DNA from: Flavobacteriales bacterium
Lineage (GTDB): Bacteria > Bacteroidota > Bacteroidia > DT-38
Length of the DNA: 52,865 nucleotides
Assembly: GCA_013214205.1 (NCBI GenBank)
Contig: JABSPQ010000256.1
Location: 1-52,865 of the forward strand
Reading direction: 5' to 3'
Positions 48,044-52,366 of the stretch are shown piece after piece (positions within the stretch are counted from its first letter, which is position 1; each line of letters starts with the position of its first letter). The translations under genes were made by a program, and so were the position numbers. The notes under the pieces are model-generated. The model searched no databases, was not told the origin of the DNA, and saw nothing but the letters and a program-made list of their open reading frames with translations.

Positions 48044-49495
48044 TTATTCGAATTTGTGAATCCATACATCTTTGTATCCAGCGTCTCTCATTGCATCACG
48101 ATCTTTTTTCGCAACGTCTATAGAGTCGTATTCCGACAGATAGATGTAGTACCATTCACGATCACTGTTGTAAACAATGAACGCTTTTTTACCTCGTTTA
48201 TCCCATTGCATAATACCAACTTTCGCATTCGAGAAGCTTCTGAATGCCTCGATTACAACATAGTATCCTGTTTTAAGTGACCGTTTCTCACCGGTAATTC
48301 TATCTACAACAGATAAGTTTTGATCTCCGTGAATAGCTCTGTCCAACTCGTTAACGTCGCCTTTTACACGGCCTATATCTGCATCAGCAACTTCTTTATT
48401 GTCCGCTACATCTTCTTCAAGCGCTGTAACTCGTATGTCTAAGCTGTCAATTTCAAATTGGTTTGAGTCAACTCTTAGAGAAAGCGCTGCAATAAGTTGG
48501 CCCAAGCTATCAATAAGTGGCATTACATCTTCCAATTCGTCTTCAGTACTCTTATCGTTGCCGCCACCGCCGCTAATGTTGAATCCAATTCCAATTTCGT
48601 GAGATCCACTTGATTGACTTACGATACCTGAAAATCCAAATTCGTAGGTGTACATTACGTTAATTTTATCGTTAACCATACCGCCTAAGGAAGCAGTATA
48701 AATCCCTCCCGAACGGAATCCAAAACCTAACCAAGCCCAATCTTGGTATTTAGTTAAAACACCAGCTTCTATTTGTAAAGGACCATTTTCGCTAAATCGA
48801 CTAATTAGTATTGGATTAAATGAAAGCATGTCGTCCATAACATCAAATTCGAAAGAAGCATGAATTAAGTAATGACGCGCGGTGTAATAATTTACATTGC
48901 TACTTCTATCATTAACATAATTTACACTGTTTCTAAGTAAGCTAGGAACGCTAACACCTATAGTAGCTTTGTCGTATGTATAGTTCAGACCAGCTCCAAA
49001 ATCTAAAGAAGTACCAACCAACGAGCTATTGTTTCCGCCGATTGAGTTAAGAAAAATATCGTCAGAATAATCGTCTACATAAGCATCGTTGAAGTTCAGT
49101 CTGTTTTCATGAAAACCACCGTTAAGTCCAAAGCTAAATGTAGACTCATCACCAATTTCCAAATGATAGGCATAACTAATCGATCCATTCAATGTTTTGA
49201 CCATTCCAAGGTCTTCAGTAATCATCGAAACACCAAAGCCACCTTTTCCAACTGGACCATTTACATTAATAAACTTTGTAACCGGAGCGCCTTCAATCCC
49301 AACCCAGTCTCTTCTATAAGAAATGTTTCCTTTCCAATCTCCTGCAATACCAGCATAGGCAGGTGAGTAGATGAAATGGTTTGTGAAAAATTGGTTCGAA
49401 ATAGGATATTGTTGTGCAAATCCCATAAAAGGCATCATTAAGCATGCGCTTAAAACACAACCTCCAATCAATTTATATATAGATACTAACTTCAT
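48044..49495 (-). CDS. PorP/SprF-family T9SS outer-membrane protein with SPOR-like C-terminal extension
   Basis: Residues 1-29 are a signal peptide (ending M-G-F-A-Q-Q). Residues 30-300 are a PorP/SprF barrel: Y-P-I-S-N-Q-F-F-T-N-H-F-I-Y-S-P-A-Y-A-G, Y-R-R-D-W-V-G, T-E-D-L-G, and repeated strands. Usual family members are about 300-340 residues and end here. This one adds a linker, a heptad-like coiled-coil (about 315-385, L-D-I-R-V-T-A-L-E) and a C-terminal domain of about 75 residues (G-Y-Y-V-V-I-E-A-F, A-K-V-G-I, W-Y-Y-I-Y-L, A-G-Y-K-D-V-W) that resembles SPOR, the peptidoglycan-binding fold. It would link the T9SS outer-membrane protein to the cell wall. It is 1 base downstream of the T9SS type B cargo gene. 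Confidence 0.9.
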   Translation of the reverse strand: MKLVSIYKLIGGCVLSACLMMPFMGFAQQYPISNQFFTNHFIYSPAYAGIAGDWKGNISYRRDWVGIEGAPVTKFINVNGPVGKGGFGVSMITEDLGMVKTLNGSISYAYHLEIGDESTFSFGLNGGFHENRLNFNDAYVDDYSDDIFLNSIGGNNSSLVGTSLDFGAGLNYTYDKATIGVSVPSLLRNSVNYVNDRSSNVNYYTARHYLIHASFEFDVMDDMLSFNPILISRFSENGPLQIEAGVLTKYQDWAWLGFGFRSGGIYTASLGGMVNDKINVMYTYEFGFSGIVSQSSGSHEIGIGFNISGGGGNDKSTEDELEDVMPLIDSLGQLIAALSLRVDSNQFEIDSLDIRVTALEEDVADNKEVADADIGRVKGDVNELDRAIHGDQNLSVVDRITGEKRSLKTGYYVVIEAFRSFSNAKVGIMQWDKRGKKAFIVYNSDREWYYIYLSEYDSIDVAKKDRDAMRDAGYKDVWIHKFE

Positions 49496-49496
49496 C

Positions 49497-50852
49497 TTAT
49501 CTCAATAATGTAATTGACCCTGTTCCACTAACTCCTTCTTCAGAGCAATCTACACTGTAGAAATAGACTCCTTCGGGTAATGCGTTTCCTTGGTAAGTGC
49601 CTTGCCAATCGTTGGCGTAGCCTTCCGCACTGTAAACGAGTACTCCCCATCTGTTATAAATCTGTACAGTACAAGAACTGTAATTCGATAAATCATCAAT
49701 TATCCAAGTGTCGTTTTTTCCATCACCATTTGGGGTAAATAGGTTTTTGGCAACTAGGATGGGTTCGATTTTAGATAAAACGATGCTTGCTTCCAAGAAG
49801 CAACCACTGTTATCCTCTACAGTTAATGTATAGGTTGAGTCTTCTCCAACTTCTATTTCAGGAGTAACTTTAATTCCTATAGTTGTTGCTCCTGTACTCC
49901 ATTCATAGCTTTCAAATTCGGAGTTAGATGCTTCGAGTAATACCGAATTACCATCAAAGAATGTGTTGTTACCAATAATGGTTAAAACCCTTGCGCTACT
50001 AGCTACTTCAACAGTTTGAATAGCAGTATCAATACAGCCGAAAGTGTCGTAAATAATTAAAGTATCTCCATAATCGCCAACGTTACTATATGTGTGCGAC
50101 ACATCTCCTGTTCCAATAGTCATGGTATCATTGTTACCCGAAAGAGGATCGCTGAAATACCACATAGAATAATCTAAAGGTAAAGTACCAACGGTAGAAG
50201 TATTAACGAATTCGGTTGGATTGCCTAAACAAGCAATGTTATTAGTAAACGAAGCAGTAGGCCCATTTACAACAGTTAAATTACCAGTAGATTGACCTGA
50301 ACAACCTTTTTCGGAAGTGTAAGTTACAGTTACGGTAATAAAAGAACTCTGAATATCGTAGGTAAACGATACTTGTGAAGCGCGGCCTACAGTAGGATCG
50401 TCTGGATCATCGTAATTCCAAACGTAATCTGCGATTCTTCTATTTGCATTATCCGGGAAAGAATCTACCGCAGTAAAAGTAATAGGGTCTCCAACACAAC
50501 CAGAAGAAGGTATATCTAGGCTTTCTAACACAGGATTGTCGTAGATCGTTACAAAAAGACTTTTGGAATCAGTTGCTCCAGATTCGGTTTTTACAGTTAG
50601 CGTTACTAAATATGCTCCCGAACCTAAATCTGCAAAAGAGTGCATTGTTGTAGTACCAATAGAATCGGTTACACCTCCAAAATCCCAAAACACCGAATCA
50701 ATCGGGTCACTTAGATCTTCAAAAGAATTACTGATGAACTCTAAAGTGTCGGTTTCGCATCCACTTGGTGCAAAAAATAAAGCATCTAATTGAGCAAAAG
50801 AACTTGTTCCCATGCCAATAAATAATGCTAAAGAAATTAATGTTTTTCTCAT
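49497..50852 (-). CDS. PKD-repeat surface protein with T9SS type B (CHU_C) sorting domain
   Basis: The 451-residue protein has a signal peptide (hydrophobic core, S-S-F-A-Q). About three PKD-type repeats of 80-90 residues follow (D-P-I-D-S-V-F-W-D-F-G, Y-L-V-T-L-T-V-K-T; R-I-A-D-Y-V-W-N-Y-D-D, and a third with M-W-Y-F-S-D). The last 80 residues are the gliding-motility-associated C-terminal domain: L-F-T-P-N-G-D-G-K-N-D-T-W, V-Q-I-Y-N-R-W-G-V-L-V-Y, L-P-E-G-V-Y-F-Y. This is the type B signal for secretion through the type IX system. Type B cargo next to a PorP/SprF gene is a common arrangement, and PorP/SprF proteins are thought to attach such cargo to the surface. Confidence 0.93.
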   Translation of the reverse strand: MRKTLISLALFIGMGTSSFAQLDALFFAPSGCETDTLEFISNSFEDLSDPIDSVFWDFGGVTDSIGTTTMHSFADLGSGAYLVTLTVKTESGATDSKSLFVTIYDNPVLESLDIPSSGCVGDPITFTAVDSFPDNANRRIADYVWNYDDPDDPTVGRASQVSFTYDIQSSFITVTVTYTSEKGCSGQSTGNLTVVNGPTASFTNNIACLGNPTEFVNTSTVGTLPLDYSMWYFSDPLSGNNDTMTIGTGDVSHTYSNVGDYGDTLIIYDTFGCIDTAIQTVEVASSARVLTIIGNNTFFDGNSVLLEASNSEFESYEWSTGATTIGIKVTPEIEVGEDSTYTLTVEDNSGCFLEASIVLSKIEPILVAKNLFTPNGDGKNDTWIIDDLSNYSSCTVQIYNRWGVLVYSAEGYANDWQGTYQGNALPEGVYFYSVDCSEEGVSGTGSITLLR

Positions 50853-51223
50853 TATACTTATGCTAAGTCGCGATTTGTGTTGATACTCAAAATATATAAA
50901 CTCGCTGATTAAGTATAGATTAGGTTAGTAAATAATGATGCTGTTAAATCCAAATGTATATATTATTTTCTATAATATTAAATTACTTCTTGAGATACAA
51001 ACAATTGAAAGTGCATTATGTCAATTCTTATTAGTGGTCGTTCTACGTGTAAAGATGAGAAAGTGTTCTGTTTATTTGTAAAAATAATGGAACAATCTTA
51101 CATGCAAAAGGCAAATAAAAATAATAAATGGGGAATAACCGCATTTCGAGCGGCAATTAATTAAAAAAAATATCTGGCACATAAATTGTTTTCCTACCTT
51201 CGAACCACATTAAAATGAATATC
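50853..51223. other. intergenic region between divergent genes
   Basis: No gene is supported. On the minus strand a TACATTTG (50951-50958) resembles the -7 box and could drive the PKD/PorP pair with a leader of about 95 bases. On the plus strand TACCTTCG at 51195-51202 is an imperfect match before the lipoprotein gene. A 48-codon open frame at 51018-51164 has no recognisable features. Confidence 0.55.
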
Positions 51224-52366
51224 ATGAGAAGCATTATTTTTTTATCTGTACTAACAATGTCGTTGCTATTTGCTTGCAACTCAAGCCAGAAGGCTTACCA
51301 GGGTGGTAATTACGATTCGGCAGTATTAAAAGCGGTAAGGAAACTAAGAAAGAGCGGCGATAATAAAAAAGCGATAGAAACGTTGTCGCAGGCTTATCCT
51401 GCAGGAAAAAATTGGCATTTAAATAGAATAGAGCAATACAAATCTTCGAGTGATGTACTAAAATGGGAGAAAATAGCGGCAGAGTATGGTGCTCTTAATA
51501 GGCAATATGAAGAGATAAACCGCTGTCCTGCATGTATGAACTATGTAATGGCCGAAAATTATTCGACGCAAAAAGACGATGCGATTAACCAAGCTGCCGA
51601 AGTAAGATATTCATTGGCAGAGAAGAGCATGGAAAATAAATTGGATAGAACCAGCGCTAAGGATGCTTACATGCATTATCAAAAAGTAGGAGCTTTAAAA
51701 CCTGGCTATAAAGATGTTGTAACTAAGATGGGCGATGCAAAATATTACGCTACGTTAAAGGTTGTTTTAGACCCATTGCCTCAAGTATCTAAGGTGTTGG
51801 AAATCAGCAATGAGTTTTTCCAAAACAAAATAAGTGAAATGTTACACAACATGCCTGTAAATGAGTTTGTGCGGTTCTATTCGCCCAAAGAAGCAAAGAT
51901 GGATGGCGTTGAGGAGGCCAACCACGTTATTCAAATTAGGTTTGATGATTTTATAGTTGGTAACGAGTTAATAAAAGAAAAATCGATTGATGTAACAAAG
52001 GATAGCGTTGTGGTAGGCACAGTGAAATTGCCAGATGGTACAAGTCAAAATGCTTACAATACGGTTAAGGCTACTTTTCATACTTCCACCAAAACAGTGA
52101 TCTCTACAGGAATCTTGGATTTTAAAATTATCAATCCGATGACGGATGTTGTTTTAACACAACAAAAATTTCCAGGAAAGCATGAATGGCAAAGTCAATG
52201 GGGGTATTTTAATGGTGATGAAAGAGCATTAAGTGCCGAGCAGAAAAAGGTGCTTAACGTAAAACAAATGAATCAGCCTCCACCGCAAGAATTATTTGTG
52301 TCGTTTACCCAGCCTATTTTCGATCAATTGGCGCTTAAGATTCAAGCGTTTTACGCAAATTATTAG
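51224..52366 (+). CDS. lipoprotein, probably with TPR-like helical repeats
   Basis: From the ATG at 51224 the protein has 380 residues and a lipoprotein signal with L-L-F-A-C (Cys18); an ATG at 51215 would add three residues. Residues 20-165 are helical with TPR-like spacing (Y-D-S-A-V-L-K-A, K-A-I-E-T-L-S-Q-A-Y, A-E-V-R-Y-S-L-A-E-K-S, A-Y-M-H-Y-Q-K-V-G-A-L-K-P-G). A C-x-x-C (C-P-A-C, at about residue 106) is also present. The C-terminal half is beta-rich and unassigned. Such lipoproteins are common, uncharacterised envelope proteins in Bacteroidota. Confidence 0.78.
   Translation: MRSIIFLSVLTMSLLFACNSSQKAYQGGNYDSAVLKAVRKLRKSGDNKKAIETLSQAYPAGKNWHLNRIEQYKSSSDVLKWEKIAAEYGALNRQYEEINRCPACMNYVMAENYSTQKDDAINQAAEVRYSLAEKSMENKLDRTSAKDAYMHYQKVGALKPGYKDVVTKMGDAKYYATLKVVLDPLPQVSKVLEISNEFFQNKISEMLHNMPVNEFVRFYSPKEAKMDGVEEANHVIQIRFDDFIVGNELIKEKSIDVTKDSVVVGTVKLPDGTSQNAYNTVKATFHTSTKTVISTGILDFKIINPMTDVVLTQQKFPGKHEWQSQWGYFNGDERALSAEQKKVLNVKQMNQPPPQELFVSFTQPIFDQLALKIQAFYANY

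Follow-up and report, generated by a model that had tools for sequence, protein, structure and literature searches.

A PorP/SprF-family carrier with a C-terminal SPOR extension beside a type B T9SS cargo gene in a Flavobacteriales bacterium

The gene pair and the architecture of the fused carrier

The window (the whole 52,865-nt stretch of DNA that was analyzed) contains two adjacent minus-strand genes, one encoding a type B T9SS cargo protein and the other encoding a PorP/SprF-family carrier that continues beyond its barrel into a putative coiled-coil and a SPOR domain (Table 1). The cargo gene is upstream, and a single nucleotide separates its stop codon from the PorP start. The pair is isolated, with the flanking genes on both sides located on the opposite strand, and neither a regulator nor a signaling domain was found in this operon. 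The cargo product matched TIGR04131 with 74.4 bits. The carrier ORF was intact and represents a genuine gene: the same layout was observed in a congener at 70% identity, and a second PorP-SPOR gene was present in the same genome (contig C350), so the ORF is neither a chance frame nor an assembly artifact. The genome also encodes the SprA translocon and GldL, and it contained 38 type B CTD matches and 23 PorP matches (the latter partly fragments of broken genes). Divergent from the operon, at 51215-52366 on the plus strand, the window encodes a lipoprotein-like protein of 383 aa that matched no family above any cut-off.

Table 1. Features of the cargo-carrier gene pair (positions in the window)
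Feature	Position	Strand	Evidence
PorP/SprF-family outer-membrane carrier with C-terminal coiled-coil (putative) and SPOR extension, 483 aa	48044..49495	-	ORF, profiles, model
Probable signal peptide, residues 1-27	49415..49495	-	Hydrophobic stretch to GFA-QQ; cleavage site predicted from sequence
PorP/SprF FadL-type barrel, residues 28-307	48575..49414	-	TIGR03519, PF11751, fold matches
Helical, heptad-patterned linker, residues 317-388	48332..48547	-	AlphaFold2 helix and a/d hydrophobic pattern
SPOR domain, residues 409-483, periplasmic side	48047..48271	-	PF05036, model, PDB matches, CwlC profile match
Type B T9SS cargo, probable carrier partner	49497..50852	-	Signal peptide, PKD domains, Bac_Flav_CTERM/CHU_C
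CTD (Bac_Flav_CTERM/CHU_C) of the cargo gene	49500-49748	-	

The TIGR03519 (PorP/SprF) match covered residues 8-307 (E 1.5e-63; 215 bits vs. a cut-off of 90.55) and spanned model positions 3-292 of 292, and PF11751 matched residues 26-305 (180.9 bits vs. a cut-off of 22.3). The modeled barrel resembled FadL and chain F of 8gl6, a T9SS complex assembled in vitro. With a full-barrel profile above its cut-off, a FadL-type barrel, and a linked type B CTD gene, the protein belongs to the PorP/SprF family. Because the barrel profile ends at residue 307, the extension comprises 176 residues (308-483).

The AlphaFold2 model of the whole protein (30 homologs) consisted of the barrel, a single long helix, and a beta-alpha-beta-beta-alpha-beta tail at residues 410-482. 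Hydrophobic residues occupied the a and d heptad positions from 335 to 362, and this pattern, together with the predicted helix, supports a putative coiled-coil, with pLDDT falling below 50 at residues 373-392. The 72 helical linker residues would span approximately 10.8 nm if fully helical (calculated at 1.5 angstrom per residue).

The Pfam SPOR match (PF05036, residues 409-476) just barely exceeded the cut-off of 21, with 23.2 bits for the full-length protein and 25.9 bits for the tail by itself; the congener scored 24.8 bits. Residues 410-482 were modeled with pLDDT 82-93 in the whole protein and 91.4 when the tail was modeled alone (31 homologs), and the tail formed two beta-alpha-beta repeats packed into one four-stranded sheet, which is the SPOR fold. 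The best Foldseek matches of the tail model were the SPOR structures 1x60 (CwlC), 6i09, and 6i05 (both RlpA), and DedD, FtsN, and DamX were also in the top ten. VIA-align, applied to the tail model only, gave Z scores of 7.6 for CwlC and RlpA (range, 5.7-7.6 for RlpA, CwlC, DedD, and DamX) and 3.9 for FtsN; the highest-scoring chain was 6ozd, a Burkholderia exported protein (Z 9.7, 76 matched residues of the same fold). A search of the PDB with the tail sequence profile found CwlC (E 7e-5). Thus, the anatomy proposed in the initial annotation (a PorP/SprF barrel, a coiled-coil, and a SPOR-like end, with approximately 180 additional residues and a neighboring type B T9SS cargo gene) was confirmed, the coiled-coil as a putative one. 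The domain search and the structure prediction that it had recommended both returned SPOR; the lack of a predicted SPOR fold, which it had named as grounds for abandoning the reading, was not seen.

The fold is shared with the SPOR domains of RlpA, CwlC, DedD, DamX, and FtsN (6i05/6i09, 1x60, 6ztg, 2lfv, and 1uta), but here it is borne by an outer-membrane beta-barrel and its glycan-contact residues differ. RlpA Gln270 contacts glycan, and SPOR domains with solved structures strongly conserve it (PMC6895207). The aromatic RlpA F274 was retained as F418, and counting back from this conserved Phe placed Gln270 at V414, a position that was Val or Ile in 31/31 PorP tails. The positions of RlpA Arg309 and Arg311, assigned by motif register rather than by superposition, were occupied by Tyr450 and Tyr452. 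The tail therefore lacks the residue set of a canonical denuded-glycan SPOR (Q270 plus the basic patch R309/R311), whereas the other clear SPORs of the same genome retained the Gln (YYTVQVGAY, YSIQVGAY, FTIQIVST, and YVIQIGAF). We considered Gln loss as a peculiarity of PorP tails and rejected it as such, since widespread Bacteroidota SPOR proteins of approximately 350 aa, used as controls, also lacked the residue; loss of the Gln does not exclude wall binding and is weak evidence either way. Judged by profile scores, the PorP-tail SPORs are a distinct subfamily: the PorP-tail model gave 81 and 99 bits for the two PorP-SPORs of the genome, compared with 12 bits or less for each of the remaining SPORs. 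Residues kept in PorP tails were Y412, V/I414, N443, Y450, Y452, and the invariant W478.

Distribution and ancestry of SPOR-fused carriers

Searching genome contigs with only the tail recovered no relative, and relatives were retrieved with a 10-row full-length alignment instead. The 60 related genomes included many further PorP fusions; SPOR was present in 20 and OmpA in 4 of the 30 long PorPs that were scanned. When a tail-profile search of the class (198 genomes), with the barrel confirmed within the same ORF, was summed with the survey of relatives, the PorP-SPOR architecture was found in at least 34 genomes and 18 family codes. When the whole phylum was searched with this alignment, the matches were mostly barrel-only PorPs from a single family code, and they were not used for the frequencies. 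By these profile matches, PorP-SPOR fusions are common in the class. Although most PorP/SprF proteins do end at the barrel, as the initial annotation assumed, the rarity that it implied for the extension was contradicted. The association with cargo was constant: for every fused PorP with sufficient flanking sequence (30/30), a same-strand type B CTD gene was located no more than 2.5 kb away. In the open journal literature that was searched, we found no description of a SPOR domain on any PorP/SprF protein, although public domain databases would display both domains.

In a tree of 180 barrels, one clade (SH-aLRT 99) held 31 of the 32 SPOR-fused PorPs together with three OmpA-fused and two barrel-only PorPs, and the OmpA-fused carriers nested within the SPOR-fused ones. 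On this tree, most SPOR fusions are of single origin. L076 (3798-5960, minus strand), a fused PorP in which SPOR matched twice, had a barrel outside the main SPOR-fused clade and possibly represents a second origin.

Other domain combinations were also recovered. A PorP of 1250 aa (L311, 4811-8563, minus strand) carried an OmpA domain (569-663) plus a C-terminal SPOR. Two proteins of approximately 410 aa (L325, 5904-7166; L326, 4709-5929) had an N-terminal SPOR of the PorP-tail subfamily and a C-terminal OmpA, with no adjoining PorP. In the same genome as the window, an ORF of 848 aa (L075, contig C293, 3519-6065, minus strand) combined a PorP barrel (106.7 bits with TIGR03519) and a VWA-like region with a sorting tail of T9SS type A (33.3 bits with TIGR04183). 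A sorting signal on a carrier barrel is difficult to square with the established topology.

Comparison with PorE-linked and Cys-tailed carriers

In P. gingivalis, PorP binds the type B cargo PG1035 and PorE, and the C-terminal domain of PorE binds peptidoglycan (PMC9143113); the OmpA-like domain of PorE was crystallized with a peptidoglycan fragment (PMC7192894). That system and the present one have in common a type B cargo, a FadL-type PorP carrier, and a periplasmic wall-type module. However, PorE is a separate lipoprotein with TPR, beta-propeller, and OmpA-like domains, whereas here a putative coiled-coil and a SPOR are attached to the barrel itself. The fused protein contained only PorP and SPOR and none of the PorE-family domains (TPR, PD40 propeller, CarboxypepD_reg, and OmpA-like), so it is not a PorE-family member, although by analogy it may function like one.

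If the SPOR tail does the job of PorE, then fused carriers are expected to lack a PorE-like neighbor, and this was the case. An OmpA-domain gene was immediately downstream of 62/136 barrel-only PorPs vs. 0/33 fused PorPs. When the comparison was confined to fusion-bearing genomes, the frequencies were 14/55 and 0/23, respectively (P = 0.007; P = 0.04 when labels were shuffled inside genomes). The neighbor statistic (P = 1e-6 to 1e-8) was rejected as strong evidence, because 31 of the 32 SPOR-fused barrels belong to one clade and the counts therefore reflect relatives, not independent events; given this mostly single origin, weight was put on the within-genome test and on domain exchange. Six barrel-only PorPs of the same genome preceded OmpA-domain genes, all six of which encoded OmpA plus PD40. 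An anchor is not obligatory for a carrier, since 73 barrel-only PorPs had neither an anchor domain nor such a neighbor.

The exchange of domains was observed in one family (f37), in which one of the two barrel-only PorPs of the SPOR-fused clade precedes a separate gene whose product ends in the same SPOR subfamily. These separate proteins contained TPR and PD40 repeats and, in most cases, CarboxypepD_reg. Their matches to the NCBI PorE model (NF052230) began close to the first model position and ran to position 480-493 of 648, with 162-186 bits compared with 295-311 bits for OmpA-type relatives (both below the cut-off of 600). The match ended where OmpA would begin, and a SPOR stood there instead; thus, SPOR replaced OmpA in the PorE slot. 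Operons consisting of a type B cargo, a barrel-only PorP, and a SPOR-ending PorE homolog were found at L318 (5252-7234), L319 (5244-7229), L320 (4250-6442), L321 (5828-7936), and L322 (4567-6546). We consider this exchange, as read from the sequences, the strongest evidence for the proposed anchor role.

Two very long PorE-like proteins from the same genome as the window, of 1651 aa (L194, 639-5594, minus strand) and 1196 aa (L195, 7053-10643, plus strand), carried carboxypeptidase-regulatory-like and SdrD_B-like domains and ended in OmpA together with LysM.

A different link is known from SprF, the carrier of the gliding adhesin SprB in F. johnsoniae, which shares with the present protein the barrel, the neighboring type B cargo, and a periplasmic C-tail. 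The short C-tail of SprF has a Cys-X-Cys motif that is disulfide-bonded to GldK, a component of the moving track (PMC12635249). The fused carrier has its 176-residue extension instead, and its only Cys residues, C13 and C18, are both inside the probable signal peptide; the mature protein is Cys-free and has no Cys motif in its C-tail, so an SprF-type link to GldK is unavailable. Among barrel-only PorPs, Cys in the last 25 residues was found in 21/74 without PorE vs. 1/62 with PorE, and 1/32 SPOR-fused carriers had a tail Cys (first and last 25 tail residues checked); these counts include related sequences and are not independent. Judging from sequence, carriers appear to fall into types with a tail Cys, with a linked PorE, or with a fused SPOR or OmpA, plus many unassigned barrel-only ones. 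Three barrel-only PorPs from the same genome as the window with a Cys near the C-terminus (L201, L198, and L200, with KPCHAYY, LVNCPSF, and IIPCAKF, respectively) are candidates for track-linked carriers.

Proposed role and alternative explanations

We propose, as the probable reading, that the fused protein is a dedicated carrier of type B cargo and bears a periplasmic wall anchor of its own in place of a separate PorE. The cargo encoded upstream would be exported via the SprA translocon, and its CTD would stay bound to the barrel at the cell surface, as suggested by what has been published for PorP and SprF. The linker helix would bridge the gap from the outer membrane toward the wall, where the SPOR would dock on peptidoglycan, and the surface cargo would thereby be fixed in place. 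Carrier (PorP) and wall clamp (PorE) would thus be merged in one chain, with the SPOR as substitute for the OmpA domain of PorE, and by analogy one fused protein probably does what related bacteria usually split over two. A static outcome would be in keeping with F. johnsoniae, in which the cargo of a carrier with a PorE-like neighbor appears static and mobile cargoes are not encoded alongside a PorE-like gene (PMC12618676). The trio Fjoh_3952/Fjoh_3951/Fjoh_3950, for which a static complex has been proposed, likewise combines a cargo, a carrier, and a wall module, but in three genes, whereas here there are two genes and a different wall-type domain. The suggestion in the initial annotation that a surface adhesin could be anchored to the wall is therefore backed, as an idea, by the type B cargo operon, the SPOR fold, the absence of a PorE-like gene, and the SPOR-for-OmpA exchange.

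Other readings of the tail were also weighed. With the canonical glycan-contact Gln gone, a distinct set of residues kept, and the PorP-tail SPORs separated from the other SPORs of the genome as their own subfamily, the tail could bind a periplasmic protein, for instance PorG, the GldK/GldN track, or another lipoprotein bound to the wall. It would then connect the carrier with the machinery of secretion or gliding, with no disulfide involved. We regard this as unlikely: the same SPOR takes the place of the wall-binding OmpA in the PorE homolog, and SPOR and OmpA alternate among the fused carriers, both of which point to the wall, and no candidate partner protein was found. Less probable still is that the tail acts as a place label that binds the denuded glycan of division sites and displays the cargo at the septum or the new poles. 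Characterized SPORs do bind stripped glycan, which is enriched at the septum (PMC6895207), and, given the crystallized PorE domain with its peptidoglycan fragment (PMC7192894), a swap to SPOR could shift the place of docking; however, the residue that recognizes denuded glycan is a Val in the PorP-tail subfamily.

The initial annotation had also raised the possibility of cell-wall sensing. A sensing tail that would gate secretion or signal to it found no support, and we hold this reading to be highly improbable. Topology alone speaks for it, whereas the operon consists of the gene pair alone, without regulator or signaling domain, and the presence of the same tail on a PorE homolog suits a structural role.

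Beyond the wall anchor proposed for this carrier, we tentatively raise a broader possibility, to which we give clearly less credence: carrier tails may be exchangeable address labels, with Cys directing the cargo to the moving track, PorE/OmpA to the wall, and the SPOR subfamily to a different wall feature (an altered glycan, perhaps that of division sites). In that case, the carrier gene could reveal where its cargo sits and whether it is mobile. These results bear on what holds type B T9SS cargo at the surface and on why it is mobile or static. With the anchor located in the carrier chain, a single deletion or swap of the tail should alter the place or mobility of the cargo, and the genomic rule (Cys tail, PorE neighbor, or fused SPOR/OmpA) would sort carriers in uncultured Bacteroidota.
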